From: a virus
Length of the DNA: 64,000 bases
Direction: 5' to 3' (one strand)
Virus record (IMG/VR): IMGVR_UViG_3300036760_000150
Location: 62,001 to 126,000 of that record
The notes under the pieces were generated by a model. It searched no databases and was not told the DNA's origin. It saw only the letters and a list, made by a program, of their open reading frames with translations. A program made the position numbers and the translations under genes. Shown here piece after piece: positions 6,885 through 64,000 of the stretch; the first letter of the stretch is position 1, and each line of letters starts with the position of its first letter.

Positions 6885-7902
6885 GTACATTCTCGTAGGA
6901 GACTTGCATGCTCAAGTTGGTAACCTTGAGGATACCGAGGTGGTGTTTGATAAAGTAGCTATGCTTGTTCGTGAGCATGGTATCGAGTTTGTTGTTTACC
7001 TAGGAGACATGTACCACACACACTCTGTCTTAAGACAAGAAGTAGTTGAACTTCTCAGACGCAAGCTGCCTGAGACGCGAGGTACATGTCAAGGTAAGCC
7101 TGTGGTACTTGTTGGTAACCATGACTTGGTTGGCCCTACCAGCACGTCGATGAATGCTTGTGAGTTGACTCTGTCTGATGTGGCTGCTGTCGTATCTGAG
7201 CCAGTAGAGGCTGGACCTGTGTTGTACATGCCATTCACCCCTGATAACAGTAAGTTCGTAGAGGAATGTAAGAAGTACTACGGCACATCTCTTGTTGTAT
7301 GTCATCAGACATTTGATGGTTCGCAATACGAGAATGGTTTCTATGCTCCAGGTGGAGTAGATCAAACTTTGATACCACAGAAGGTTGTCATCTCGGGTCA
7401 TATACATAAATCGCAGAAAGTTGGTAAGGTTACATACGTGGGTACCCCACGAGCCCTCACTGCTGCAGAGTGTGATGAAGATAAAGGTCTTGTCATGATG
7501 ACCTACGATGATGTGACGTGTGGTGTTGAGCTTAAGATGTACTCGTTGAACGGATTGGTGAAGACTTACAAGAAAGTTGACGTACAAGAACCAGCTGAGT
7601 TTGATATGCCGCTTTTGAACGGTTGGGGAGCCAAAGACCACGTCATGCTGCATGTGCATGGATCTGAAGACTACTGTGAAACCTTCGTGAAAGATAAGTT
7701 ACCCGTACTAAAACAGCTTCGACCTAAGACGACTATAAAGGTGGCCTGTCATGTAGAGAAAGTTGTTGATGGTAAACCTATCATGGACGTATCCTCTGAG
7801 AGTGTTACGGATTCACTTCGTAAGTATGTAATGGAAGTTGCTGACATGAAGGCGACACTAAGAGAGAGGGTATGGGAGACGATATCAAGAGAACTGAAGT
7901 AG
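6874..7902 (+). CDS. SbcD/gp47 (Mre11)-like nuclease
   Basis: This 342-residue calcineurin-type metallophosphoesterase has all the metal-ligand motifs: GDLHAQ (Asp10, His12), LGD (Asp45), GNHD (Asn82, His83) and GHIH (His176, His178). This matches Mre11, SbcD and T4 gp47, the nuclease subunit that works with the SbcC/gp46 ATPase in end resection and recombination-dependent replication. The ATG at 6874 overlaps the end of the sigma-factor gene; a longer in-frame start at 6817 would lie deep in that gene and spoil the usual N-terminal strand. Its ATPase partner is encoded about 6.5 kb away on the opposite strand. Confidence 0.88.
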   Translation: MKRKYILVGDLHAQVGNLEDTEVVFDKVAMLVREHGIEFVVYLGDMYHTHSVLRQEVVELLRRKLPETRGTCQGKPVVLVGNHDLVGPTSTSMNACELTLSDVAAVVSEPVEAGPVLYMPFTPDNSKFVEECKKYYGTSLVVCHQTFDGSQYENGFYAPGGVDQTLIPQKVVISGHIHKSQKVGKVTYVGTPRALTAAECDEDKGLVMMTYDDVTCGVELKMYSLNGLVKTYKKVDVQEPAEFDMPLLNGWGAKDHVMLHVHGSEDYCETFVKDKLPVLKQLRPKTTIKVACHVEKVVDGKPIMDVSSESVTDSLRKYVMEVADMKATLRERVWETISRELK

Positions 7903-8267
7903 AGAATAAAGATTGGATTCTCGCTCGGTTGTTGTTTGAGAAGTTCTCTATACTTCATGATTTTCATCAGATACAGATGAAGACGTATATAGTGGCATGT
8001 TGCAACATCTCTTTAGGTGGAGTTGCAAAACTATCTGTCGCTGACAAGACTATAACGTATGAGTTGGCAACAGAGAGGAAGTTCAAGAAGACTGACAATG
8101 AGCTTGTCGAGAAGAACAAGTTTATCGGACTATGGAGTGTCCCCCCTGTTCGTTACAAAGTAGAGAAGGCTCTTGCCTACGATAATCTGGTGAAATGGAC
8201 GCGACAACTTCTTTGGAACGACACGAATGTTATCTTGGTTGTAGATGGGAAGTCTTATGCTGGATGA
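7872..8267 (+). CDS. Hypothetical protein (131 aa)
   Basis: This small soluble protein is not recognised. It overlaps the 3' end of the sbcD-like gene by 31 bases and the start of the terminase-like gene by 11. AGAGAGGG lies only one base before the ATG; another ATG at 7977 would give a 96-residue form beginning MKTYIVACC. No catalytic motif is visible. Confidence 0.6.
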   Translation: MGDDIKRTEVENKDWILARLLFEKFSILHDFHQIQMKTYIVACCNISLGGVAKLSVADKTITYELATERKFKKTDNELVEKNKFIGLWSVPPVRYKVEKALAYDNLVKWTRQLLWNDTNVILVVDGKSYAG

Positions 8268-8859
8268 TACAAAGAAACCTAACTTCACCGAGAGAGAGTG
8301 GACCCTGTTGAGCACAGTGGCTGACACTGGAGTGAAGCCCATATCTCCCTCTCTCTCTGCAGAGATGCTGAACTTGTACATGGAGAGCTACTCTTGCGAG
8401 CAGATCGCCCATATGAACAAGGGGTTTGCCGAGGTAGATGTCCTGTACTGTCGTTACAAGTACGATTGGGATGGTCAAAGAGATCGGTATGCTAAGCAAT
8501 TGCAAGAGCAGGTTGTCCAGAAACTTGCTAAGCTGAAGATGGAGTCTATGGAGTTCTTGAGCAACATGTTGTCCATCCTTCATAAAGACGAACGAGAGAA
8601 GATGATCGCCTATCTACAATCTGGAAGAGAAGAAGACAGGCCTAAGATCTGGGCGACTAACATCACAACATACAAGTCTGTCATTGAGACCATACAGAAG
8701 CTCACTGGAGAGGATAAAATTCAGAAGCATGAAGTTAAAGCTGAGCACAGGATGATCGCATCACCAGAGCTTAAGAAGGCTATAACCAAGGATATCCAGA
8801 CCAGCCTGCTGAGGCAGCTGGTGACCGGTCCTGGTAAGGTTAAAGGTAAAGGTGAATGA
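8257..8859 (+). CDS. Probable small terminase subunit
   Basis: This 200-residue, helix-rich protein has a possible helix-turn-helix in its N-terminal third (SAEMLNLYMESYSCEQIAHM), a central amphipathic helical stretch and a basic C-terminus (GKVKGKGE). It lies directly before and overlapping the large terminase gene, the usual place of the small subunit that recognises packaging-start DNA. The ATG at 8257 has GGAAG at suitable spacing; an in-frame ATG at 8245 does not. The assignment is mainly from position and fold type. Confidence 0.55.
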   Translation: MLDDTKKPNFTEREWTLLSTVADTGVKPISPSLSAEMLNLYMESYSCEQIAHMNKGFAEVDVLYCRYKYDWDGQRDRYAKQLQEQVVQKLAKLKMESMEFLSNMLSILHKDEREKMIAYLQSGREEDRPKIWATNITTYKSVIETIQKLTGEDKIQKHEVKAEHRMIASPELKKAITKDIQTSLLRQLVTGPGKVKGKGE

Positions 8860-10765
8860 ACAGAATTTCATAGATATAAATGCTCTATCGCCCGATCAGC
8901 GCGATGAGATACTAAGAGCACTTGTTACCAAGCGTCTTACCACTCGTGAAGACCTTAGCATGTGGCTTTTGTTCTTCTTAGGCGTTGACCTTGCTGACTG
9001 TACGGTGTCTAGGTTTGCCACTTCAAATCCTTTGGATATGGTGTGGTCGATTTATCAATTTTGGGCAGATAAAACAGTCGAACACCCACTCTCCACCTTC
9101 TACATCGCCGGTCGAGCTTCTCAGAAAACACTATCTTGCGCAGTGCTTCAGGTTTTGTTGCCATTGCATTTTGGTGTTGGGGTTGTTCATTTCGGTGGCA
9201 CTAAAGATCAAGCAGGTCGAGCCTACGAGTACTTCAAGAAGTTCGTCAGTCGACCATACATACGGGGCTACCTCAAAGATGAGCCCACTCAGACTAAGAC
9301 TTTGTTCAACATAGCTGGAATAGATGAGGAGGTTGAGCATGCAAACGCATCGTTCAACGTAGCCGACAGTGAAGTTAAGATCCAGATATTGCCAATATCC
9401 TCCATGTCAGTACAGGGGCCACATGAACCAGTCGTCTCTCTTGATGAACTGTCCAGCCTCACTCCTGACAAGATCAGGGCATATGAAGACGTATCTGGCG
9501 TTCCTATCTCTAACCCTGTAGATGGTCATCCATGGGTTAAATTTGGCATTAGCTCTCGTAAAGGTAAGTACACCGTCATCGAGACTGAGTACGACAGGCG
9601 TGATAAGTCGGGTGTTATTTTTAAGTTCTGGACTGTGTTGGAGAATACCAAGGCATGTCCTGAATCTATCAGGACTAACATACCCCTTGAGATGTACGTA
9701 AATGTCTATGAGAATGTAGCGATACTGCAAGATGCTTACGATCAACTGGAACCTCTCAAGAAGTCACAGTATGAGAAGATACAGGCCTACAAGGGGTGTT
9801 ACACATGTCCCTTGAAGGCACTTTGCGCTGGCGATGCTGCTAAGCAGACGTCAACATGTAAGACTTTGAGGCCCATCACATCGACGATTCAGGAGTTTAA
9901 AGAGGCACCATCTCTTGAGTGGTTCTTGAGTCAGAAGATGTCTCTGACACCAGCTTCAGAAGGTCTGGTGTTGCCCAAGTTCAATCGTGAGAACTTTGAG
10001 AAGACTCCTCGTGAGATCTACAATATCTGGACTGGTACTGATCCTGGTAGGGAGATCACAAAGGAAGAACTTGTCGTTGAGATGATCAAGGCTGGCGTCA
10101 AGAGACATATGGGGCTTGATCATGGTTACTCGCATCCTGCTTCGTTTGTCGTGGTATTTCAAGATCCAGCCGACAACATCTACGTCATGAAAGTTATCAA
10201 GAGGGTTGGTTTGGAGCCTAACGAGGTTGTTGAGCTTGTTGCGAAGTTGAAGAACATATACCATTTAACTCGATGTCACCCTGACACGGCAAGACCTGAT
10301 GTCAACAAGATGTTGAGGAAAGTTATAAAAGTAGGTGATGATTTTGACAAAGACGTTGATAGGGGTATAACGTTGATTCGTGGCAAGATCTCCCCAACCG
10401 TTGGAAGTACTAAGTTCTTCGGTATCAAAGGTGAAGTTGAAGATTTGAGTTTTGAGCTTGAGAGGTATCACTATGATACTGACTCGGCTGGTAAGATCAC
10501 TGAAGAGGTGGTAAAGGAGCTGGATGATGCTATCGACGCGCTCTCCTACGATGCTCAGAACCAGTGGGGCAATAGTGCTGTGAACATACCTCCTGCAGAT
10601 GAAGTCAAGGGCAAAGAAGAGACGCGAGAACAGTACGCTGAGCAAGTTAAGGCTCAGATGAACAACTGGCTGTCCAGTCAGATCAGAGAGCATGTGGTAG
10701 AGCAGAAAGGTAGCGCTGGCAGCACTGGTCAATCGAAGAATTCTGGTGTGGTATGGGATTTCTGA
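8852..10765 (+). CDS. Large terminase subunit (TerL), packaging ATPase-nuclease
   Basis: This 637-residue protein has the two-domain plan of TerL. The ATPase domain shows a variant Walker A, AGRASQKTLS, near residue 90 and Walker B plus catalytic acid in VVSLDELS near 195. The RNase H-like nuclease domain has acidic residues in GLDHGYSHP (near 422) and in DDAIDALSYD (near 557). It pumps DNA into the prohead through the portal and cuts the concatemer. Between the domains is a cysteine cluster C-x2-C-x5-C-x9-C (about residues 318-337), which looks metal-binding and is unusual for TerL. The start is GTG at 8852, overlapping the upstream gene by 8 bases. Confidence 0.9.
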   Translation: MNEQNFIDINALSPDQRDEILRALVTKRLTTREDLSMWLLFFLGVDLADCTVSRFATSNPLDMVWSIYQFWADKTVEHPLSTFYIAGRASQKTLSCAVLQVLLPLHFGVGVVHFGGTKDQAGRAYEYFKKFVSRPYIRGYLKDEPTQTKTLFNIAGIDEEVEHANASFNVADSEVKIQILPISSMSVQGPHEPVVSLDELSSLTPDKIRAYEDVSGVPISNPVDGHPWVKFGISSRKGKYTVIETEYDRRDKSGVIFKFWTVLENTKACPESIRTNIPLEMYVNVYENVAILQDAYDQLEPLKKSQYEKIQAYKGCYTCPLKALCAGDAAKQTSTCKTLRPITSTIQEFKEAPSLEWFLSQKMSLTPASEGLVLPKFNRENFEKTPREIYNIWTGTDPGREITKEELVVEMIKAGVKRHMGLDHGYSHPASFVVVFQDPADNIYVMKVIKRVGLEPNEVVELVAKLKNIYHLTRCHPDTARPDVNKMLRKVIKVGDDFDKDVDRGITLIRGKISPTVGSTKFFGIKGEVEDLSFELERYHYDTDSAGKITEEVVKELDDAIDALSYDAQNQWGNSAVNIPPADEVKGKEETREQYAEQVKAQMNNWLSSQIREHVVEQKGSAGSTGQSKNSGVVWDF

Positions 10766-11816: not shown

Positions 11817-13793
11817 ATGAGCAACAAGAACGATACTTCTAAATCTGACAACATGTCACCCACCGACAAGAGATTCACCTCCATAGTCATGGAGAAGACT
11901 GACGTGTCGACTATGAAGGAAGATGTCTTATCACAGATCCTGCTCACCTTGAAGAAAACTCAGGACGAGGAAGTGGTCCGAGTTGCCTTTGAGGAAGATC
12001 CTACAAACAGAAGTAAGTACGCTGGGCTGTTCAAGAATCGTGGTAGTGGAATCCCCAACGAGATGCTTAAGAGAGTCAGAGACTCTGAGGAGCTGATCGG
12101 CGGAGTCATCATACCCACTCGTGCTAGACAGATCAGCCTGTTTGGTCATCCTCGTGCCAACAGATTTGATATAGGTACCACCATCAACCTGAAGCCTCAC
12201 GTCATGTCTCAGATGGATGTTCAGAAGGCAGAGGATTTAAAGAACAAAGAGATACCGAAGATCAGAGAGATGCTGATGAACTGTGGCATCAAGAAAGGTA
12301 TCACCGATCGTGAAAGACTCACGTTATCTGAGTGTATCTACGAGATCATAGAGGATGCATTGACGTTTGGTTACCTATCTATTGAGGTGCGACGCAACAC
12401 TGTTGATGAGTTCCACAGCTTCAGGCCCATAGACTCTGGCACAATCTACCAGTTTGCTACACCTGTAGGTAGCGAGTCTGAAGTTCAACGTATCAGAGCT
12501 GAAGCCAAAGAAGCGTTTAAGACTTTGACCGGGAAACCGTCTGAGCTTAACGTTAAGATCGACAAAGATGAGATCACTTGGGTTCAGGTGATAAACGGTC
12601 AAGCGAAGCAGGTGTTCACCGACAATGAACTGTTAGTTTACAACCTGTATCCTTCAACAGACATACGTCGTAACGGCTACGCATGCTCACCTATCGAGCG
12701 CATGTTGACCGCTGTCGTAACTCACATCAACATAACAAACCACAACAAATTGTTCTTCCTGAACGGTAGAGCTGCACGCAACGTCATGGTGTTTCAGTCT
12801 GAGAACTTAGACGTTGAAGACATCAAGAACATTCGTTCGCAGATGCAAGACCATATCAACTCTGCCAACGCCTCGTGGCGTATGCCAGTGTTTGGCGTCG
12901 GTCAGAACGACAAGATCGACGTGTTGCCACTTGATGGTGCTGGTCGAGACATGGAGTTTCAGTACCTGGCTGACCTTACCAAGCGTATGATCTTCGCTGC
13001 GTACCAGATGTCGCCTGATGAAGTTTCAGCTCTGTCGTACTTGTCGCGTGGCACAGGGTCACAGTCTCTTTCAGAGTCGAACAACGAGTATAAGCTTGAG
13101 GCTGCCAGAGATCTAGGTCTTCGTCCCATCTTGATGGCTATCGAGTCGTTCTTCAACGAACGTCTACTTCCTCAGATAAGCAAAGATTGGGCAGAGAACT
13201 TCTACATCAGCTTTGAAGGTCTCGACGCTGACAGCCCAGAGAAGGAAGCCACTCGCATCCAGCAGGACTCAGCCATCCACATGTCTATGAACGACATCAT
13301 GGACAGAGTCGAGAAGAAGAAAGTTCCACTTGGCGGCAGCTTCGTGCTCAACACGGCTTACATGACAGTGCTTGAGAAGTACTTCACCAAAGGTGAGATC
13401 TTAAGGGCGTTCGGTGGAGACAAGTTCAAAGACGCAGATGACGCCAAGAAGCACCCCGAGTGGGACTACTACATGGGCGACCCAGGTTCCCAGTGGTACA
13501 CGCAGGTGAAATACGGTCAGCAGCAGCAAACTCCTCCTGGAGGATCTGGAGGTGGACCACAGGACGGTGGACAACCAGGAGATCAGTCTGGCAGCACAGA
13601 GGATATGTCATCTATAGTTGATCAGCTTGGTCAGATGTTAAGCAAGGCCGAGAAAGATCTACCTAACGCTCGTAAGGAACTCTTGTCTAAGCACAAAGAC
13701 ATAAAGAACTCTATCTTGAAAGCTTGGGAACAAGAGTCTGACGCTATGTTCAAGCAGATCATCAACGCCATAGACGGCGGCGATGGACACTGA
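11817..13793 (+). CDS. Portal protein
   Basis: This 658-residue protein matches portal proteins in size, position (after TerL, before the minor head protein) and sequence style. It has a long mixed N-terminal domain, a wing and stem region with SECIYEIIEDALTFGY and QYLADLTKRMIFAAYQMSP, and a C-terminal Gln/Gly-rich linker (about residues 565-590) followed by a helical tail. Twelve copies are expected to form the DNA entry pore at one head vertex and to dock the terminase. The AAA-type segment PPGGSGGGPQDGGQ is low-complexity linker, not a P-loop. It starts 6 bases after the preceding gene. Confidence 0.88.
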   Translation: MSNKNDTSKSDNMSPTDKRFTSIVMEKTDVSTMKEDVLSQILLTLKKTQDEEVVRVAFEEDPTNRSKYAGLFKNRGSGIPNEMLKRVRDSEELIGGVIIPTRARQISLFGHPRANRFDIGTTINLKPHVMSQMDVQKAEDLKNKEIPKIREMLMNCGIKKGITDRERLTLSECIYEIIEDALTFGYLSIEVRRNTVDEFHSFRPIDSGTIYQFATPVGSESEVQRIRAEAKEAFKTLTGKPSELNVKIDKDEITWVQVINGQAKQVFTDNELLVYNLYPSTDIRRNGYACSPIERMLTAVVTHINITNHNKLFFLNGRAARNVMVFQSENLDVEDIKNIRSQMQDHINSANASWRMPVFGVGQNDKIDVLPLDGAGRDMEFQYLADLTKRMIFAAYQMSPDEVSALSYLSRGTGSQSLSESNNEYKLEAARDLGLRPILMAIESFFNERLLPQISKDWAENFYISFEGLDADSPEKEATRIQQDSAIHMSMNDIMDRVEKKKVPLGGSFVLNTAYMTVLEKYFTKGEILRAFGGDKFKDADDAKKHPEWDYYMGDPGSQWYTQVKYGQQQQTPPGGSGGGPQDGGQPGDQSGSTEDMSSIVDQLGQMLSKAEKDLPNARKELLSKHKDIKNSILKAWEQESDAMFKQIINAIDGGDGH

Positions 13794-13798
13794 CGCTT

Positions 13799-14611
13799 AT
13801 GCTGAACAAGAGTACTCGAAAACTTCTCGCTGACATCATCGCAAAGTCGTTCGACAAGTTCAAGGGGTCATTCGTAGGCCCATCTGCATCTTCTACCGGC
13901 TACCTATTTGCGCTAAGTGCTCACCCTACAAACAAGCGTGTGTCAGATGCATACGTGCACGCAAACGCGTCCTCTTCTCTTAGAGATACGATCGACAGGT
14001 CTACGATAGAGCGGATCGAAGCCACTGCAGCCAACTACGTCGATGCCTTGAAGCAGAAGGCCGTGTCAGACATACTGCGAACTGTTGAGGAGAACCTGGC
14101 AGAGGCTAAGAATAAAGGCATGCTTAAGGGTGTGTCTCCTCAGATGTTCTTGAGGTCTGAGGATGGTCGAGAGATCATGGACAAGATCAGAGACCAGTTG
14201 ATGGACCAGAAGAAGAAGATAGATCGAGGCATCGAGCTGATCGCAAACGTGGAGCTTCATAACGCACAGAACCATGGGGTAGCTGACGCCATCTTGGGTA
14301 TGGCCAAGTCCATCGGTGATGCTGACCCTACTGTGGCGAAGTTCGGTGTTGTCGACGACAAACTATGCAAGGACTGCAAGAGGCTGTGGCACACAGAAGA
14401 GAACATCAAAGTTCCTAAGGTCTACAAGATGAGCGAGTTGGCTGGCGACTCTGGCGATTGGAAGAGTAGAGTGGCATCAGTGTCGAGCACCCACCCTGCA
14501 TGTCGCCACGTTCTTACGTACATCTCAAAGGGCTTTGGGTTTGACAAAGCTGGCCGTCTTCGCTATGTCGGCAAAGACCATGACGAACACAAATCTCAAG
14601 GTGGAGCCTAA
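13799..14611 (+). CDS. Minor head protein, SPP1 gp7/Mu F-like C-terminus
   Basis: This 270-residue protein lies just after portal, where gp7/F-type minor head proteins sit. The N-terminal part is helical. The C-terminal part shows the family pattern: a DDKLCKDC cysteine pair near 192, a conserved SEL segment, then STHPACRH near 233 with the HP-x-C-R motif. These proteins usually enter the prohead with the portal and may travel with the DNA. The paired cysteines suggest metal binding. It starts 6 bases after the portal stop. Confidence 0.8.
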   Translation: MLNKSTRKLLADIIAKSFDKFKGSFVGPSASSTGYLFALSAHPTNKRVSDAYVHANASSSLRDTIDRSTIERIEATAANYVDALKQKAVSDILRTVEENLAEAKNKGMLKGVSPQMFLRSEDGREIMDKIRDQLMDQKKKIDRGIELIANVELHNAQNHGVADAILGMAKSIGDADPTVAKFGVVDDKLCKDCKRLWHTEENIKVPKVYKMSELAGDSGDWKSRVASVSSTHPACRHVLTYISKGFGFDKAGRLRYVGKDHDEHKSQGGA

Positions 14612-14896: not shown

Positions 14897-14902
14897 ATGT
14901 AT

Positions 14903-15841
14903 ATGGCAGCCTTAAAGAAGAACTTGATAGTTGAGGGAGTACTCACAGCCCAAGTACCTGACACGGCTGGTGAAGTCCTTGACATATCTGGCGCCGACAT
15001 AAGCGACCTTAAGACTGGTCGTAGCCCCGTCAACACTGAACATATCAACCCGGACGACATCAAGAAAGACAGTGACGACAACGGGTTCCAGTCTATCGTG
15101 GGCCGCGTGATTGACGCAAAAAAGATCTTCAGCGAAGAAGACTGTGACAGCCCTGATGAACTTAGGGCTTACAAGAACCTCAAAGTGCCTTTAATCTGGG
15201 GTAAGATCGAGATATTCGACAACGACAAGTCGCACGACAACGCTCGTGCTGCAGCCTCGATCATCAGGAACTACGCCGATGCAGGTGTCAAGCAGTTGCT
15301 TGGGTACTCTGTCGAAGGCAACACATTGAGAAGAGACGGAAATTTACTTAAAGAAACGGTGATCAAGAGGATCGCCTTGACAGCCAAGCCTGCTAACAAG
15401 GCAGCTGTCGTTCAGGTTGTGAAGGACCAGCCGCAATCTACCTCTGCTTCTATTACAAAGTCAACGAGTAGCATTGGCGGCTATGAGCCCCTCTTTAAAT
15501 CTGAGAACTTCATGAGCCACATGCGCGTGGTCAAGGATGACTACGGTCTGTCAGGCGCCATCTTCAAGTTGAAGAAAGCTCTGACGGCAGGTGGTTCAAA
15601 CGTACCCCCAGGCAACCTCACGAACGGGTCGGCGTTGCAGCCAGAGTCCCAGCTAGGAAAGCTAAAGAAACTGATCGGACGACAGAAGATCAGTAGGGAC
15701 CTTCTAAGACGCCATCTACCTAAGATCTCTGAGGAAGACCTGGACAAGGTCGAAGCTGTCCTGAAGGCAGAGCGTGAGGCTGTAGACCTCAAATCTGCGC
15801 AGGATACCTACGACCAGATAACTAAAGGTTTTAAACAATAA
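14903..15841 (+). CDS. Prohead maturation protease
   Basis: This 312-residue protein resembles HK97-type (U35) prohead proteases in its first 180 residues. It has an N-terminal strand VEGVLTAQVPD, a NTEHIN segment that may hold the catalytic histidine, an IVGRVID strand, LLGYSVEG, and the characteristic late motif IKRIALTAKPANKAA. Such serine proteases cut scaffold and capsid N-termini in the prohead. A flexible Ser/Thr linker follows, then a segment (about residues 223-250) that closely matches the N-terminus of the major capsid protein, then a helical tail. ATG 14903 is chosen over 14897 because the late promoter ends at 14896; neither has a Shine-Dalgarno site. Catalytic residues are inferred from pattern only. 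Confidence 0.75.
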   Translation: MAALKKNLIVEGVLTAQVPDTAGEVLDISGADISDLKTGRSPVNTEHINPDDIKKDSDDNGFQSIVGRVIDAKKIFSEEDCDSPDELRAYKNLKVPLIWGKIEIFDNDKSHDNARAAASIIRNYADAGVKQLLGYSVEGNTLRRDGNLLKETVIKRIALTAKPANKAAVVQVVKDQPQSTSASITKSTSSIGGYEPLFKSENFMSHMRVVKDDYGLSGAIFKLKKALTAGGSNVPPGNLTNGSALQPESQLGKLKKLIGRQKISRDLLRRHLPKISEEDLDKVEAVLKAEREAVDLKSAQDTYDQITKGFKQ

Positions 15842-15861
15842 ATGATAATGTTTCTGCCTAT

Positions 15862-15883
15862 TTAACAAGATAACTTAACATTA
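15862..15883 (+). promoter_or_regulatory. Degenerate late-type promoter element
   Basis: TTAA (15862-15865), 8 bases, then CTTAACATTA (15874-15883). It keeps the spacing of the late element with two changes in the core, and lies upstream of the structured leader and the gene at 15959. Confidence 0.4.
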
Positions 15884-15939
15884 TGTCTTGTACACACGGC
15901 GGATGGCATGTTTCATCGTGCCCGTTCCCCCGCAAGACA
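15884..15939 (+). promoter_or_regulatory. Structured mRNA leader
   Basis: TGTCTTG (15884-15890) pairs with CAAGACA (15933-15939), and inside them GGCATG pairs with CGTGCC (one G-U pair). Together they form a two-tier hairpin just before the ribosome site AAGGAG (15947-15952) of the next gene. It could stabilise the mRNA of an abundant head protein or tune its translation. Confidence 0.45.
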
Positions 15940-15958
15940 AAACGATAAGGAGATGTAG

Positions 15959-16414
15959 ATGTCAGCACAAATCGCTAAATCCAGCACACTGATGCTTAAG
16001 TTGAAGGAAGAGCTTCGTCAGAAGCTGCCCTCATTCGTGCAAACAGACAACGTGGACAGCAACGGCTACCCCACCTTGCTCTTGAGCGCAGACTCCACAC
16101 CCGCTGCTGGTGAACAGAACATGTTCATCCGCATCACCACGATGTCTAGCCCCTTTGTCGACTCCATCGGACAGTCACAGTCGGTCTACGGCCCTCATGT
16201 GATCCAGTCTGTTGAAGAAGCCAGTACAATCTCTGGAGTCTCACTTTTGACTCTTGCCAACCGGTCGAAGATCGATTGGTGTATCACCCGCGCTGGATGC
16301 CAAGAAGAGAAGTACCTCAGAGCCAATGGGGCAGCCCCCGGCCTCTCTGATATCACTTCTGGTAACCTTGTGTCTAAAGTTGCGGACGCGTACTTCGCGC
16401 TCTCTCACCAGTAA
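15959..16414 (+). CDS. Probable head decoration/stabilisation protein
   Basis: This 151-residue protein, without membrane segments, lies between the prohead protease and the scaffold-like and major capsid genes, the usual place of a small decoration protein. The middle is beta-rich (GYPTLLLSADSTP, NMFIRITTMSS) and the C-terminal third is short helices. A strong ribosome site (AAGGAG) and a folded leader suggest high expression. The family is not recognised; the role is inferred from position. Confidence 0.6.
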   Translation: MSAQIAKSSTLMLKLKEELRQKLPSFVQTDNVDSNGYPTLLLSADSTPAAGEQNMFIRITTMSSPFVDSIGQSQSVYGPHVIQSVEEASTISGVSLLTLANRSKIDWCITRAGCQEEKYLRANGAAPGLSDITSGNLVSKVADAYFALSHQ

Positions 16415-16461
16415 GCAACTGGAGAAAAAAACGGTTACTTGTTGGAAAGAGAGGAGATGTT

Positions 16462-17415
16462 ATGGACCAAGACCTTAGTAAGTTAGTAGCAGAAGCGACA
16501 GAAGCACTCGACAGTCTTATCAAGTCTGAGAGAGAACGCTTCGACATCCTCCTGAAATCAGAAACGTCTGATAAGAAAGATGGCACCAAGCCGCTAGCTA
16601 AGAAAGAAGAGTCGTCCAAGGAGGAGTCTTCAAAATCCAAAGAAGAGTCATCCATGGCGAAGAAAGAGGAGTCTTCTAAGAAGGAAGAGTCTTCAAGATC
16701 CAAAGAAGAGTCTATGAAGAAAGATGACCCAGAAGGTTCGGGCTTTCAAAGCCCTGCCCCTGAGGCATCTTCAAAGCCTGAAGAGTCTAGCTCGCCTGAA
16801 GGGTCAAAGACCCCTGAGGCCTCTAGTTCTCCCGAAGCGTCTGGTGATGCTGGCGTCGATCATATCTCAGAGATGCTCTCTGGACTTGACGACGAGCAGT
16901 TGCAACACCTCTACATGTCGTTGAAGTCTGAGCTGATGTCTCGCATGAAGCCTGAAGATCAACCAGCTAAGCCCGACATGTCAAGTGCTCCGGCCCCTTC
17001 ACCTGCCGCACCATCGCCGTCGCCTGAACAACCAGGAATGGAGAAGATGTACATGGCAGAGAAGAAAGAAGTCGAGGAGAAGTTGTCGAAGTCTGAGGGT
17101 ACCCTTAAGAAAGCACAAGAAGAGAACGGTGCTCTTAAGAAGGCTCTTGAGAACGCGACTGACATGCTCGACAAGATCCTCAGCCGTCCCGTCAAGAAAG
17201 CCATCACCGACATCCGATTCGTGGAGAAGGGTGAGGAGCTTGCCAAGACAGACGACAAGATCAGCGACTCTGATCTGAAGAAGAAAGCCAACACCGTGTC
17301 TAAAGACATGGGTAAACTCAGCCAGTTATCTAAATCTGAACGTGAAACCCTTGTTGACTTCACCACCGGACGCTCAAAGGCTCGTGAAGAAGTTATCAAG
17401 ATCGTTAACAAGTAA
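16462..17415 (+). CDS. Scaffold-like head protein with Lys/Glu/Ser repeats
   Basis: This 317-residue protein is highly charged. Residues about 48-90 repeat short units of the type KKEESS, KEESSK and SKEESS; residues 95-125 are Pro/Glu/Ser-rich; residues 200-240 form a coiled coil (EKKEVEEKLSKSEGTLKKAQ). Immediately before the major capsid gene, this is what a prohead scaffold or internal core protein looks like. It would be destroyed or cleaved by the protease at maturation. The ribosome site AGAGGAG is well spaced. A frame on the opposite strand here is an artefact of the repetitive composition. Confidence 0.65.
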   Translation: MDQDLSKLVAEATEALDSLIKSERERFDILLKSETSDKKDGTKPLAKKEESSKEESSKSKEESSMAKKEESSKKEESSRSKEESMKKDDPEGSGFQSPAPEASSKPEESSSPEGSKTPEASSSPEASGDAGVDHISEMLSGLDDEQLQHLYMSLKSELMSRMKPEDQPAKPDMSSAPAPSPAAPSPSPEQPGMEKMYMAEKKEVEEKLSKSEGTLKKAQEENGALKKALENATDMLDKILSRPVKKAITDIRFVEKGEELAKTDDKISDSDLKKKANTVSKDMGKLSQLSKSERETLVDFTTGRSKAREEVIKIVNK

Positions 17416-17426
17416 AGGAGTGCAAA

Positions 17427-18830
17427 GTGCAAGAAGTCATTCAGAAAATCGAAGAACTTAGGAAGGCGCTGGAAGCGGGTGGGATGAACGCCGCTCCCGG
17501 AACACTGACTCAAGGGTCTGCGCTCCAACACGAAGACCTCAGTGCAGTGATGAACGTCACCACATTTGAAGACAAACACATCAAGCTGCAGAAGAAGTTC
17601 AAAGTCGTCCCCGCCAAAGGGACGATGGTCCAGTACAATCGTCAGCTTGACCGTGGTATCTTCGGCGGATCTGCCGTCATCGAGGGTGCTGTCGGAGACG
17701 AGAGCACATCGACGTATGTGCGTGAGATCGTCAACATGTGCTACTACGCTGAAGTGCGTAGGACCACAGAGCAAGCCAACCTCATCGAGTCTTTCGACGG
17801 TGTCAAAGCCGATGACAGGGTCGAGCAGGATGCAGCTCTCAAGATCGCTGGCGACGTCGAGTTCGACCTCTTCCGAGGTAAGTCGATGTTCTCCAACGGT
17901 GGGGTGTTCGACGGCCAAGGTTCTGCTATCCCTCAGAACATGCCTAACATCCTCGGTCTCGACCCTCTCATCAGACGGTCAGACATCCTTCAAACTACAC
18001 AAGACCTCATGTTCAACGAGTATGGATCTGACGGATCTATCCAGTTCAACCAAGCTGGTGTCCTGTCTCAGTCCACTATCGAAGACATGTACGCTCGCTC
18101 CAGCATGAACCTCGGTATGGCTGACTGGCTCGGACTTGATCCTTTGACCCACAGCGGGTACAACAAGATCAGTCACGCCAAAGAGCGTATCGTCCTCGCT
18201 GGATCGCCTCAACAAGCTACTGGTGCAAGCCTGAAGGAGCAGTGGGTCGCTGGTGGTGCTATCACCGTCGAGTCCAGTCGCTTTCTCTCAGCCAAGACCA
18301 GCCCTGCTCGTCCTAAGATCGGATCTCCTGCAGCCCCAACACATGCTGCCGCTGACGGGTCTCCATCGGGCACATCGTTCATCGCTGCTCAAGTCTACTA
18401 CTACCGTGTTACCTCTGTCAACGAACGTGGTGAAAGCTCTGCTTCAGCCGCTGCCTCGTTCACGGTTGCGACCTCTGGTAACAGTACCGCGCTCACGATC
18501 ACCCCTGCTGGCGGTGTCCAAGCACTGTACTTCAACGTCTACCGCTCGAATGCTGGTGAACCTGCATCGAAGGTTCGCTTCATCGGTCGCGTCGCTAACA
18601 GCGGTGCTGCTACCACGATCTTTACCGACCTCAACAACAGACTTCCAAACGGCGTCACGGGCTTCCTGCTCGATATGCGCGGTATGGAGATGCCTGAGTT
18701 GGCCAGCTACCGATCGAAAGAGCTTGCTAGAACAGACTTAAGCAATCCCAAAGTATTTTATCGCTTCACAACCCTTGCGGTAAAATTACCAAGGTTCAAC
18801 TGCCTTGTTGATAACTTGCTCCCAAGCTAA
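17427..18830 (+). CDS. Major capsid protein with an Ig/FN3-like insertion
   Basis: This 467-residue protein has the HK97-type major capsid layout. An N-terminal helical arm (residues 1-45) is followed by a body with VPAKGTMVQYNRQLD, STYVREIVNMCYYAEVRR and DLFRGKSMF, typical of large-phage capsid proteins. Residues about 310-410 look like an inserted fibronectin/Ig-like domain (AAQVYYYRVTSVNERGESS ... FNVYRSNAG), which would lie on the capsid surface. The N-terminal arm shares a motif with the protease gene product (see findings) and is probably cleaved. The start is GTG at 17427, with AAAGGAG. A terminator follows at 18857-18887. Confidence 0.85.
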   Translation: MQEVIQKIEELRKALEAGGMNAAPGTLTQGSALQHEDLSAVMNVTTFEDKHIKLQKKFKVVPAKGTMVQYNRQLDRGIFGGSAVIEGAVGDESTSTYVREIVNMCYYAEVRRTTEQANLIESFDGVKADDRVEQDAALKIAGDVEFDLFRGKSMFSNGGVFDGQGSAIPQNMPNILGLDPLIRRSDILQTTQDLMFNEYGSDGSIQFNQAGVLSQSTIEDMYARSSMNLGMADWLGLDPLTHSGYNKISHAKERIVLAGSPQQATGASLKEQWVAGGAITVESSRFLSAKTSPARPKIGSPAAPTHAAADGSPSGTSFIAAQVYYYRVTSVNERGESSASAAASFTVATSGNSTALTITPAGGVQALYFNVYRSNAGEPASKVRFIGRVANSGAATTIFTDLNNRLPNGVTGFLLDMRGMEMPELASYRSKELARTDLSNPKVFYRFTTLAVKLPRFNCLVDNLLPS

Positions 18831-19466: not shown

Positions 19467-20238
19467 GTGTTAACGAAGAATCCAATCACTGTGTTGTGTG
19501 AAAAAGGTCACAGACGAGATGTAGAGAAAGCAGTGAATATTTTTCTTGGTAAGTCCTGTCCATCATGTGCTAATGTTGGTACATCCAAGCCCGAAGAAGA
19601 TCTAAGAGGATGGTTGACTGCTTTAGGTGTTAAAACAGAAAAATTCTCGTTAAAAGATGAGAGTAATGCACATGTACGAGGAAGAAGGTCTCAGATAGAT
19701 ATTTATATTCCAGATCATAATCTTGGAATCGAATACTGCGGTCTCTATTGGCATAACGAAGATTCGCCCCATCCAAGGTGCTAGCTCACTGCATAAGATA
19801 GCTTTCGGGTTATATCACAAAGATCTTCTTATCGGAGTAATCACTGGCGGCAGGCACAGTAGAGTCAACTCGGGCGAGTTACTTGTCCTTGATAGGTTAT
19901 GTTTTGCCTACGACTATTCTGTTGTCGGCGGCTCATCTAAACTGTTCTCATATCTGTTAGAATGGGCTAAAAATAATAATTACAAGCAAATCGTCAGTTA
20001 CTCAGACAGTCGATGGTCGGAAGGCAACGTATACGACAAGCTGGGCTTTATGTGTACTAAGATTTATAAATCGGATTACAGTTATGTCAAAGGACAACAA
20101 CGATATCCTAAACAGCAACTCAAATTAACACAAGATGAGCGACAACTTGGAATCCCAGAAAATGAATTACGTAAAACTCAAGGATACCGTCGCATCTGGG
20201 ATTGCGGCAAGAAACGATGGGTTTACTATATCAATTAA
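19467..20238 (+). pseudogene. Degenerate homing endonuclease (PD-(D/E)XK/Vsr-like type)
   Basis: Two frames together look like one phage homing endonuclease. The first (19467-19784) has a zinc-finger-like part (CEKGHRRDVE ... CPSC) and a nuclease core SKPEEDLRGWLTALGV ... QIDIYIPDHNLGIEYCGLYW. The second (read through to 20238) gives the C-terminal part, GLYHKDLLIGVITGGRHSR, SVVGGSSKLFSYLLEW, VSYSDSRWSEGNVYDKLGF. The frames join near 19770 with a shift, and the middle 60 or so residues expected in this family appear to be missing, so the gene carries a deletion and is probably inactive. The start at 19467 is GTG; the original N-terminus may also be lost. It lies in the accessory gap after the capsid gene, convergent with the minus-strand gene ending at 20235. 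Confidence 0.75.
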
Positions 20239-61889: not shown

Positions 61890-64000
61890 CTAAACGTTCG
61901 CCACCGTTGTGTCGACGACCACTACTGGGGTATCGTCCACCTTGAACGATGGTATACCGTTCCACGGAGCCATGAGCATGACAGCGCTAAGATCCGGCAT
62001 CTCCTCCACGTATCGCCTGACCTGTCTGTAGACGTCGGCCCTCTTCTGTGAGTTGACCTTGAGTTCTATGGCGATCTTCTCGCCGTGGCGGCTGACCATG
62101 AAATCAAGCCTACTCCTGCTGGTTATCTTGACCTCTCGTTCAACAACAGCGTCTGGCACCAAGCCGGGCAATACCTTAGACAAAGCCTCCTGCATCTCTT
62201 TCTCGTTGTTTGTAGGCAGCCTTACTCGTCTGAGAGCCTGTGCAACGTCTCCTATGAGACCGACCTCAGGGACTGGCTCTGGTATATCCTCCCCGATCTT
62301 CTTTAGGTACTCCTTGGCCATGTCACGCACCCTGTCCACGTTGAACCCAGCATCCCTGAGGATCTCTGCCTGACCATCTTTACCTTCAACCAGGCCGTCA
62401 TGCTGGCTGCGCTTGACGCCTAGGATCTTCATCATGAATGGGTCGGAGCCGTCTGGTATGGTGATATAGAATGCTTGAACTGGTTTTGTCTGACCGTCAC
62501 GGTCCAGCCTGGAGACAACTTGGTCCATCACGTGTGGACTCCAGTCAAGCTCTCCGAACACAACAGTCGAGCACGCTCTCTGGAGACCGTCTAGACCAGC
62601 ACCACTTCTTAGGCTGATGATGAACACCCTAGCCTCACCTTCCACGAACTCCTTAACTGCTTTGTCTTTCTGTGCGGCAGACTCGCTGCCTGTGTACATG
62701 ACAGGGTTGTAGGATGCAAGCTCTTTAAGCCAAACATCATAGCAATCCCTGTGCCATCCAGCCAAGACAACCTTGTCGCCTCCGTCTAGGACCATCTTCA
62801 TGAACTCCGCCACCGGTTTAGCCTTGGCTACCCCTGTGGCGTGACGTAGCTTCCAGTCGAACTCCCTCGCACTCTCGCTGCTGTCTGTGACGTTTCCACT
62901 GAGAACGCTGATAGCTAGTAATTTCGCCACATCCTCGACTTCTTTAAGCTTGTCTATGTCGGCGTCGACCGTGTATACGTGTTTGGCGCAGTCACCGAAC
63001 TTCAGTCCAGCCTCCTCTGGTGTCCTGCGGAGCATGAGTCCTTGACTCTTGAGGTAACTATGTAAGATGCTTGGTTCTGTCACTTTTCCCCATGTGCACC
63101 ACTCGTCCATGAAGTCGTACTCTTCCCCTAGACACCCTTCTTTTATCACGTCGAGCACGCTCCATATCTCAGAGCCGTAGTTGTAGATGGGAGTACCTGT
63201 GAGGCCAAGGCAGTACTTCATGTTGTTAGATATCATCTTGCACAAGTTACGCTTGGCAGTGCCTGTGTGTCTCAGCTCGTGAGCCTCGTCTAATATCAGT
63301 GTTTTAACCTGTTTTGACAATGGTACCAGGACGTCTTGCCACGGTGCTAGCCTGTTGTAGCTAGTGACCACTACGTCTACCTGTGGAAGCTCGTAGTTCT
63401 TGAACCCTTTTATGATATGCGTTGTGACTTCTGGAAGAAATCGTTTGATCTCCCTGTCCCACTGGGTGCATAGGTATGGAGGTACGACGATTATCGCCGG
63501 TCTACGCTCTGGCTCACATAGTGTAGATATCGCACTGGCCGTTTTACCTAACCCCATTCTATCAGCCAGAAGCATCCTGCCCATCTTGGCGAACATGTTG
63601 TTGAACTTGACCTGGTGATCTCTTAGTGGTAGAGCAAGCTTAAGAGCTTCTTCGCTTATCTTGTAGACTCCGTCTTTATGAGAGTTGATGACAGCGTCTA
63701 TTATCTTGTCGTACTCTTCACTCTTTGATGTGATCTGATGTAAGTCTGACTCGCTGATCTGCAGGTTGTACCTCTGCAGTATCCATGTGATATCTTTGGC
63801 TGCGTTCATGGTAAGCGGGAATGATATAGGCTTGTGGGTGAACTTACCTTGGTCGAAGTGAGGTTTGGCGTTGTCGAACAGTTTGCGAAGCCGCATCATT
63901 ATGTGAGGTTCGGCATCCACAACAAGTCTACAATCTTGGTTGTCTAAGTAGACAACACCTTGGTAGTTCATCAGGTTAACCTGTTCGCCAACTCTATAGC
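61890..64000 (-). CDS. SNF2-family helicase fused to a PD-(D/E)XK nuclease-like domain
   Basis: The 693-residue protein from ATG 63971 has the SNF2/SF2 motifs: LRDHQVKF, motif I RMGLGKT near 140, motif II ILDEAHEL near 232, motif III GLTGTPIYN near 256, and motifs V/VI SLRSGAGLDGLQ ... VVSRLDRDGQ near 460-505. The C-terminal 90 residues have a restriction-nuclease-type core with Asp623 (SRLDFMV) and E636-x-K638 (IAIELK). It would move on DNA and cut or bind it. The frame stays open upstream to the window edge, so the true start may lie outside it. It lies upstream of the early minus-strand promoter region. Confidence 0.85.
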   Translation of the reverse strand, partial: YRVGEQVNLMNYQGVVYLDNQDCRLVVDAEPHIMMRLRKLFDNAKPHFDQGKFTHKPISFPLTMNAAKDITWILQRYNLQISESDLHQITSKSEEYDKIIDAVINSHKDGVYKISEEALKLALPLRDHQVKFNNMFAKMGRMLLADRMGLGKTASAISTLCEPERRPAIIVVPPYLCTQWDREIKRFLPEVTTHIIKGFKNYELPQVDVVVTSYNRLAPWQDVLVPLSKQVKTLILDEAHELRHTGTAKRNLCKMISNNMKYCLGLTGTPIYNYGSEIWSVLDVIKEGCLGEEYDFMDEWCTWGKVTEPSILHSYLKSQGLMLRRTPEEAGLKFGDCAKHVYTVDADIDKLKEVEDVAKLLAISVLSGNVTDSSESAREFDWKLRHATGVAKAKPVAEFMKMVLDGGDKVVLAGWHRDCYDVWLKELASYNPVMYTGSESAAQKDKAVKEFVEGEARVFIISLRSGAGLDGLQRACSTVVFGELDWSPHVMDQVVSRLDRDGQTKPVQAFYITIPDGSDPFMMKILGVKRSQHDGLVEGKDGQAEILRDAGFNVDRVRDMAKEYLKKIGEDIPEPVPEVGLIGDVAQALRRVRLPTNNEKEMQEALSKVLPGLVPDAVVEREVKITSRSRLDFMVSRHGEKIAIELKVNSQKRADVYRQVRRYVEEMPDLSAVMLMAPWNGIPSFKVDDTPVVVVDTTVANV

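Follow-up and report, generated by a model that had tools for sequence, protein, structure and literature searches.

For HK97-type heads, it is still poorly understood how prohead proteases are placed, limited in number and restrained before the shell has been completed. Prohead proteases usually co-assemble with the scaffold. In HK97, which has no separate scaffold protein, the S78-type protease gp4 trims the N-terminal part of the HK97-fold capsid protein gp5 after a lysine (K103/S104). The T4 protease gp21 cuts after glutamate at the motif [IL]-X-E, and the herpesvirus protease UL26 is encapsidated via a capsid-binding peptide that also occurs in the UL26.5 scaffold, and frees itself by self-cleavage. 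In both T4 and SPN3US, the prohead protease (gp21 and gp245, respectively) cleaves itself, and proteins are directed into the prohead by short peptides (PMC10052503). SPN3US gp245 cuts after glutamate, at AXE, and has a 64-residue C-terminal propeptide (PMC10052503). Here, we analyzed a 64,000-nucleotide stretch of viral DNA, referred to below as the window (IMG/VR record IMGVR_UViG_3300036760_000150, positions 62,001 to 126,000), in which the prohead protease and the major capsid protein (MCP) share a peptide. We show that this pairing is spread among related phages and that the two copies co-vary within genomes without having been copied recently.

The prohead protease and the capsid protein carry copies of one peptide

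The window protease gene (14897-15841, plus strand) encodes a 314-amino-acid prohead (head maturation) serine protease of the Peptidase S78 kind, and the MCP gene (17427-18830, plus strand, GTG start) encodes a 467-amino-acid SPO1-like protein with the HK97 fold. Residues 225-251 of the protease (15569-15649, plus strand; LKKALTAGGSNVPPGNLTNGSALQPES) and residues 11-37 of the MCP (17457-17537, plus strand; LRKALEAGGMNAAPGTLTQGSALQHED) are identical at 18 of 27 amino acids. The DNA of the two copies is 58% identical, with the same codon used at 5 of the 18 identical residues. The Smith-Waterman score of the pair was 88, compared with 65 for the best of 1,000 shuffles; BLASTP gave an E value of 1e-7, and a profile-profile comparison gave 5.6e-10. 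The initial annotation had already noted this identity over diverged DNA, and these values bear it out. It had placed the protease copy at residues 223-249, a numbering that fits a start two codons later; the peptide is the same. A motif profile search of the entire 146,673-base record found these two copies and none elsewhere.

The identity of both proteins was supported by several comparisons. The protease matched phrog_1028 and phrog_38466, both head maturation proteases (PHROG match at E 4e-8), and was 31.9% identical to the putative prohead protease of Myxococcus phage Mx1 (E 2e-36). The window protease itself had no Pfam match; PF04586 (Peptidase S78) was matched by 12 of 20 aligned relatives, with a best E value of 5e-13. 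H49 and S138 were invariant across 20 aligned proteases and would be the conserved catalytic histidine and serine. Prohead proteases were among the matches of the protease model in a viral structure library (E 5e-9 and lower ranks), and a fold search of the PDB with the same model gave no credible match. The MCP matched phrog_752 (E 7e-44), and its model matched the SPO1 capsid structure 9vel (E 5e-30, TM score 0.75). At 52.9% MCP identity, Mx1 is the nearest named relative. The window shares with the Herelleviridae (SPO1, Staphylococcus phages 812 and K) the gene order portal, protease, scaffold, MCP, as well as the MCP fold, whereas its MCP is only about 20 to 28% identical to theirs, and we therefore rejected membership of this family by close head-gene kinship.

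We then determined how widely the pair occurs. With the window protease alone as query, no loci were found; an alignment of five protease sequences yielded 80. Searching related phages for the motif in both genes, as the initial annotation had proposed, revealed a recognizable pair in 24 of 26 named phages, comprising all Herelleviridae tested, from several subfamilies and with a version of the peptide specific to that family, Mx1, Jeremy-like phages of Gram-negative hosts and the Thermus phage Cumys. Among the distinct pairs from IMG/VR, 3 of 39 (L119, L143 and L157) were dropped because the protease itself had been picked as the MCP; 31 of the 36 usable pairs scored above every shuffle, and at least 3 more visibly share the peptide. 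When the motif profile was run on 14 named genomes, exactly two matches and no additional copies were found in 10 genomes and none in the other 4. Jeremy was missed by this profile, and Cumys gave two copies when searched with its own peptide. The two genes need not be neighbors, as the copies in L014 lie 27 kb apart.

The similarity was restricted to the MCP N-terminus, since in none of the 26 named phages did the protease resemble the rest of the MCP. When the PDB was searched with a profile built from 20 proteases, phage capsid proteins were the only significant matches (E 3e-6). The protease and MCP of HK97, T4 and D3 share no significant peptide. For HK97 gp4 and gp5 (L164, 3348-5185), the best alignment remained below the shuffle maximum; this borderline common stretch (DGKQGIFEGYASVFN and DGKQGTFGAKTFNK), which lies just before the K103 cut, was not significant (p about 0.03). 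In one relative (L018, IMGVR_UViG_3300045971_001064, about 7900-8328, plus strand), a small open reading frame (ORF) just past the thyX gene bears a third copy of the MCP arm, resembling MCP residues 7-71 (42% identity, E 3e-12), and may be the decayed remnant of an MCP copy or encode an independent arm protein. The components described here are of known kinds, an S78-type protease and an SPO1-type HK97-fold MCP; in the open-access literature that we searched, we found no description of a peptide common to protease and MCP, nor of any other sharing of the capsid arm between enzyme and shell, and no paper for structures 9vel or 9row.

Across the named phages, the two copies within a genome were on average 67% identical, compared with 35% between groups, regardless of whether protease was compared with MCP, protease with protease or MCP with MCP. 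This within-genome match was equaled by none of 20,000 permutations. In the independent IMG/VR set, which comes mostly from one clade and in which MCP copies are 62% identical among themselves, own copies were 58% and foreign pairs 47% identical, again with no equal in 20,000 permutations. Across 54 genomes, own-copy identity stayed at about 0.6 throughout, whereas foreign identity fell from 0.62 to 0.29 as the MCP bodies diverged, and a partial Mantel correlation of 0.255 remained after similarity of the catalytic domains and the MCP bodies had been removed (0 of 2,000 permutations). Identical residues used the same codon in 202 of 451 cases, where 206.2 were expected from codon usage. Because codon agreement is at chance level, the copies are not recent duplicates, and the proteins have been kept alike by selection.

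A probable cleavage site at the start of the peptide

The first constant residue of the peptide is a lysine, invariant in alignments of 19 and of 24 MCPs, which corresponds to K24 in phage 812, K23 in SPO1 and K13 in the window MCP. For the phage 812 MCP, one deposited chain has 463 residues (5lii); others (9row, 9rox and 9roz) have 439 and begin at S25, which directly follows the aligned lysine. In the SPO1 capsid, chains of the 468-residue MCP are modeled over at most 445 residues, which is exactly what would remain past K23. The virion of phage K contains the peptide SFQTGYGITPDTQIDAGALR (PMC5258805), indicating that the stretch past the lysine is retained, although trypsin would also cut there. 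By alignment, the window MCP would thus be cut between K13 and A14, giving a predicted propeptide of residues 1-13 (17427-17465, plus strand) and a mature capsid protein whose N-terminus would be the peptide from A14 onward. Such a cut after lysine in the N-terminal part of an HK97-fold MCP would resemble that of HK97.

A pattern of a hydrophobic residue, any residue, lysine, and serine or alanine ([LIVMF]-x-K-[SA]) was about sixfold enriched in the scaffolds of the 26 named phages (174 sites versus 27 expected) and also enriched in the proteases (114 versus 21.5), and was hardly enriched in the MCPs (54 versus 29). In the scaffolds, the residue after lysine was serine at three times the expected frequency. 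The likely rule is therefore cleavage after the lysine of hydrophobic-x-K/[S or A], and both this rule and the cut position are supported by homology. The protease carries the same lysine: we predict a self-cleavage site between K227 and A228 (FKLK-K/ALTAGG; 15575-15580, plus strand) from the alignment with the 812 and SPO1 MCP sites and from the pattern. Of 54 proteases, 50 have lysine at the aligned place, as do all MCPs if K31 of Cumys is counted. The four remaining proteases, from LfeInf, Bromius, Mecenats66 and Cumys, keep the downstream peptide (81% identity in Cumys) and have hydrophobic-x-K-[SA] sites some residues upstream of the aligned place, which indicates that the layout of the protease is constant: catalytic domain, cut site, mimic of the capsid arm and a small helical domain. 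The scaffold sites lack the 25 residues seen past the cut in MCP and protease, and no scaffold of the 26 phages showed detectable similarity to the MCP N-terminus; the downstream peptide would thus not be needed for cutting.

The initial annotation had suggested a cut at or near the motif, and the alignments point to its very start. We also considered that the peptide might be cut where it ends, at a T4-like [IL]-X-E motif (ALQPE or ALQHE), and rejected this in favor of the lysine at its start, given the 812 chain start and the site pattern. The motif is present in the proteases of relatives, and the 812 and SPO1 data speak against an intact N-terminus on the mature capsid protein. The initial annotation did not decide between targeting and cleavage as the role of the peptide; the two appear to stand in tandem, with a cut site followed by about 25 residues that may serve in targeting. 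A T4-type capsid-targeting sequence is a short signal at the N-terminus that a gp21-type protease removes after a glutamate motif; the paired peptide is of another kind, as it lies within the protease chain and is likely cut after the lysine at its start.

Possible roles of the paired peptide

The mimic follows the catalytic domain and precedes a small helical domain at the C-terminus (residues 252-314, 15650-15838, plus strand), which AlphaFold modeled with a predicted local distance difference test (pLDDT) score of about 85 and helices at residues 252-260, 267-273 and 279-313. In the models of both protease and MCP, the peptide forms an unfolded stretch directly after a helix. We give an even chance to a model in which the protease, through a tail that imitates the MCP N-terminal arm, docks in the prohead as a pseudo-subunit and is freed by self-cleavage. 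During prohead assembly, the mimic would take the site of an MCP arm on neighboring shell subunits, so that the protease is incorporated. Once activated, the protease would cut after the lysine of its recognition pattern at many scaffold sites, at K13/A14 of the MCP and at its own K227/A228, a step predicted from homology. The self-cut would then separate the catalytic domain from its docking tail for digestion of the scaffold, and the arm would stay on the mature MCP; release may be the purpose of this cut. Under this model, the copies would co-evolve because both must fit one site, and since the peptide is retained on the mature MCP, its partner is most simply the shell. The common interaction of protease and MCP suggested by the initial annotation agrees with the presence and co-variation of the motif in both genes; the residues downstream of the cut are, among the explanations left, best accounted for by targeting. 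Extended to the Herelleviridae and the Mx1-like, Jeremy-like and some Thermus phages, the proposal that the protease is encapsidated as a counterfeit capsid subunit, with a co-evolving tail that fills a groove of the lattice and with encapsidation coupled to activation through one self-cut at the upstream edge of the tail, is one that we hold more tentatively, at somewhat below even chances. It differs from the herpesvirus arrangement, where overlapping genes give protease and scaffold the same peptide; in the window phage, the protease has it in common with the capsid protein itself, and two separate genes encode it.

Several points weigh against the pseudo-subunit model. The evidence for the cut from the 812 chain start and the SPO1 chain lengths is indirect. 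At three positions there is a systematic difference, with T, G and R or K in the protease copies where the MCP copies have E, Q and V or I, so the binding of the two copies may not be identical, and these differences need explaining under every model. Co-variation would be equally expected if the binding partner were the scaffold or the protease itself. The protease copy of Lalka27b is weak and doubtful, and in DAC16, which manages without one, no protease copy was found. The AlphaFold models are of monomers, which cannot show docking to a capsid lattice.

Two alternatives, each of which we regard as unlikely, assign the peptide to the protease itself. The protease might read some 25 residues past the lysine as an extended recognition sequence, its own copy being a self-processing site. 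The near-universal aligned lysine would fit this explanation, as would the precedent of SPN3US gp245, which sheds its propeptide by self-cleavage (PMC10052503), but scaffold sites lack the downstream residues, the four proteases without the lysine keep them, and 25 conserved residues far exceed ordinary protease subsites. Alternatively, the MCP arm might bind a second site on the protease; the copy in the protease would occupy this site in cis and so act as a brake up to the moment of self-cleavage. Such an exosite would account for the within-genome co-variation and for a copy placed just past the catalytic domain; the arm is, however, strongly conserved on an MCP that is cut only once, and in the protease model, built from a shallow alignment of 17 sequences, the peptide had a pLDDT below 50 and made no confident contact with the catalytic domain.

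Slightly less probable again is that the scaffold is the common partner, with the same peptide recruiting MCP and protease to the scaffold core. The scaffold gene directly precedes the MCP gene in most relatives, and co-assembly with the scaffold is the usual route, yet mature SPO1 capsids, from which the scaffold is expected to be gone, retain the peptide, apparently in ordered form to judge from chain length. That a recent duplication or gene conversion placed a functionless copy of the MCP 5' end in the protease gene is very improbable. The third copy in L018 implies that this end can be copied, but the chance-level codon agreement contradicts a recent event, the pair is found across families and, as L014 illustrates, it is not limited to neighboring genes.

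Under the favored pseudo-subunit model, a 25-residue mimic co-evolving between enzyme and shell offers a concrete, mutable handle on the placing and restraint of the protease, and the phages with the pair include much-studied and therapeutic ones (SPO1, K, 812 and Listeria phages). The hydrophobic-x-K/[S or A] rule would be a simple means of predicting, across hundreds of genomes, where scaffolds are cut and where mature N-termini lie, and the mimic could possibly serve as a tag for loading cargo into such capsids.

Head-gene cluster of the window

The head-gene cluster begins with the terminase large subunit (8852-10765) and the portal (11817-13793). Between portal and protease lies a gene for a 270-amino-acid protein (13799-14611) that is possibly a MuF-like minor head protein; by eye, it resembles an ORF of SBSphiC (L002, 7736-8596), with C-x2-C and H-P-x-C patterns. 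In Mx1 and many relatives (L001, 5288-9007; L094, L098, L100, L111 and L121), the protease ORF encodes 600 to 1,640 amino acids, with large extra C-terminal domains past the peptide. A by-eye similarity between the C-terminal domain of the protease and the scaffold C-terminus was unsupported (hhalign E 0.24 to 0.4; 0 of 26 pairs).

Downstream of the protease, a gene for a 151-amino-acid protein is followed by that for a scaffold-like protein (16462-17415, plus strand); the MCP gene comes next, an arrangement also seen in Mx1 and the Herelleviridae. The scaffold-like protein resembles ORFs at the equivalent position in IMG/VR relatives and contains seven [LIVMF]-x-K-[SA] sites versus 2.0 expected; part of its gene (16594-16720) is a low-complexity run with KEESSK-type repeats. 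Shortly past the MCP gene, two overlapping ORFs in different frames (19467-20238, plus strand) read as one endonuclease-like gene broken by a frameshift.

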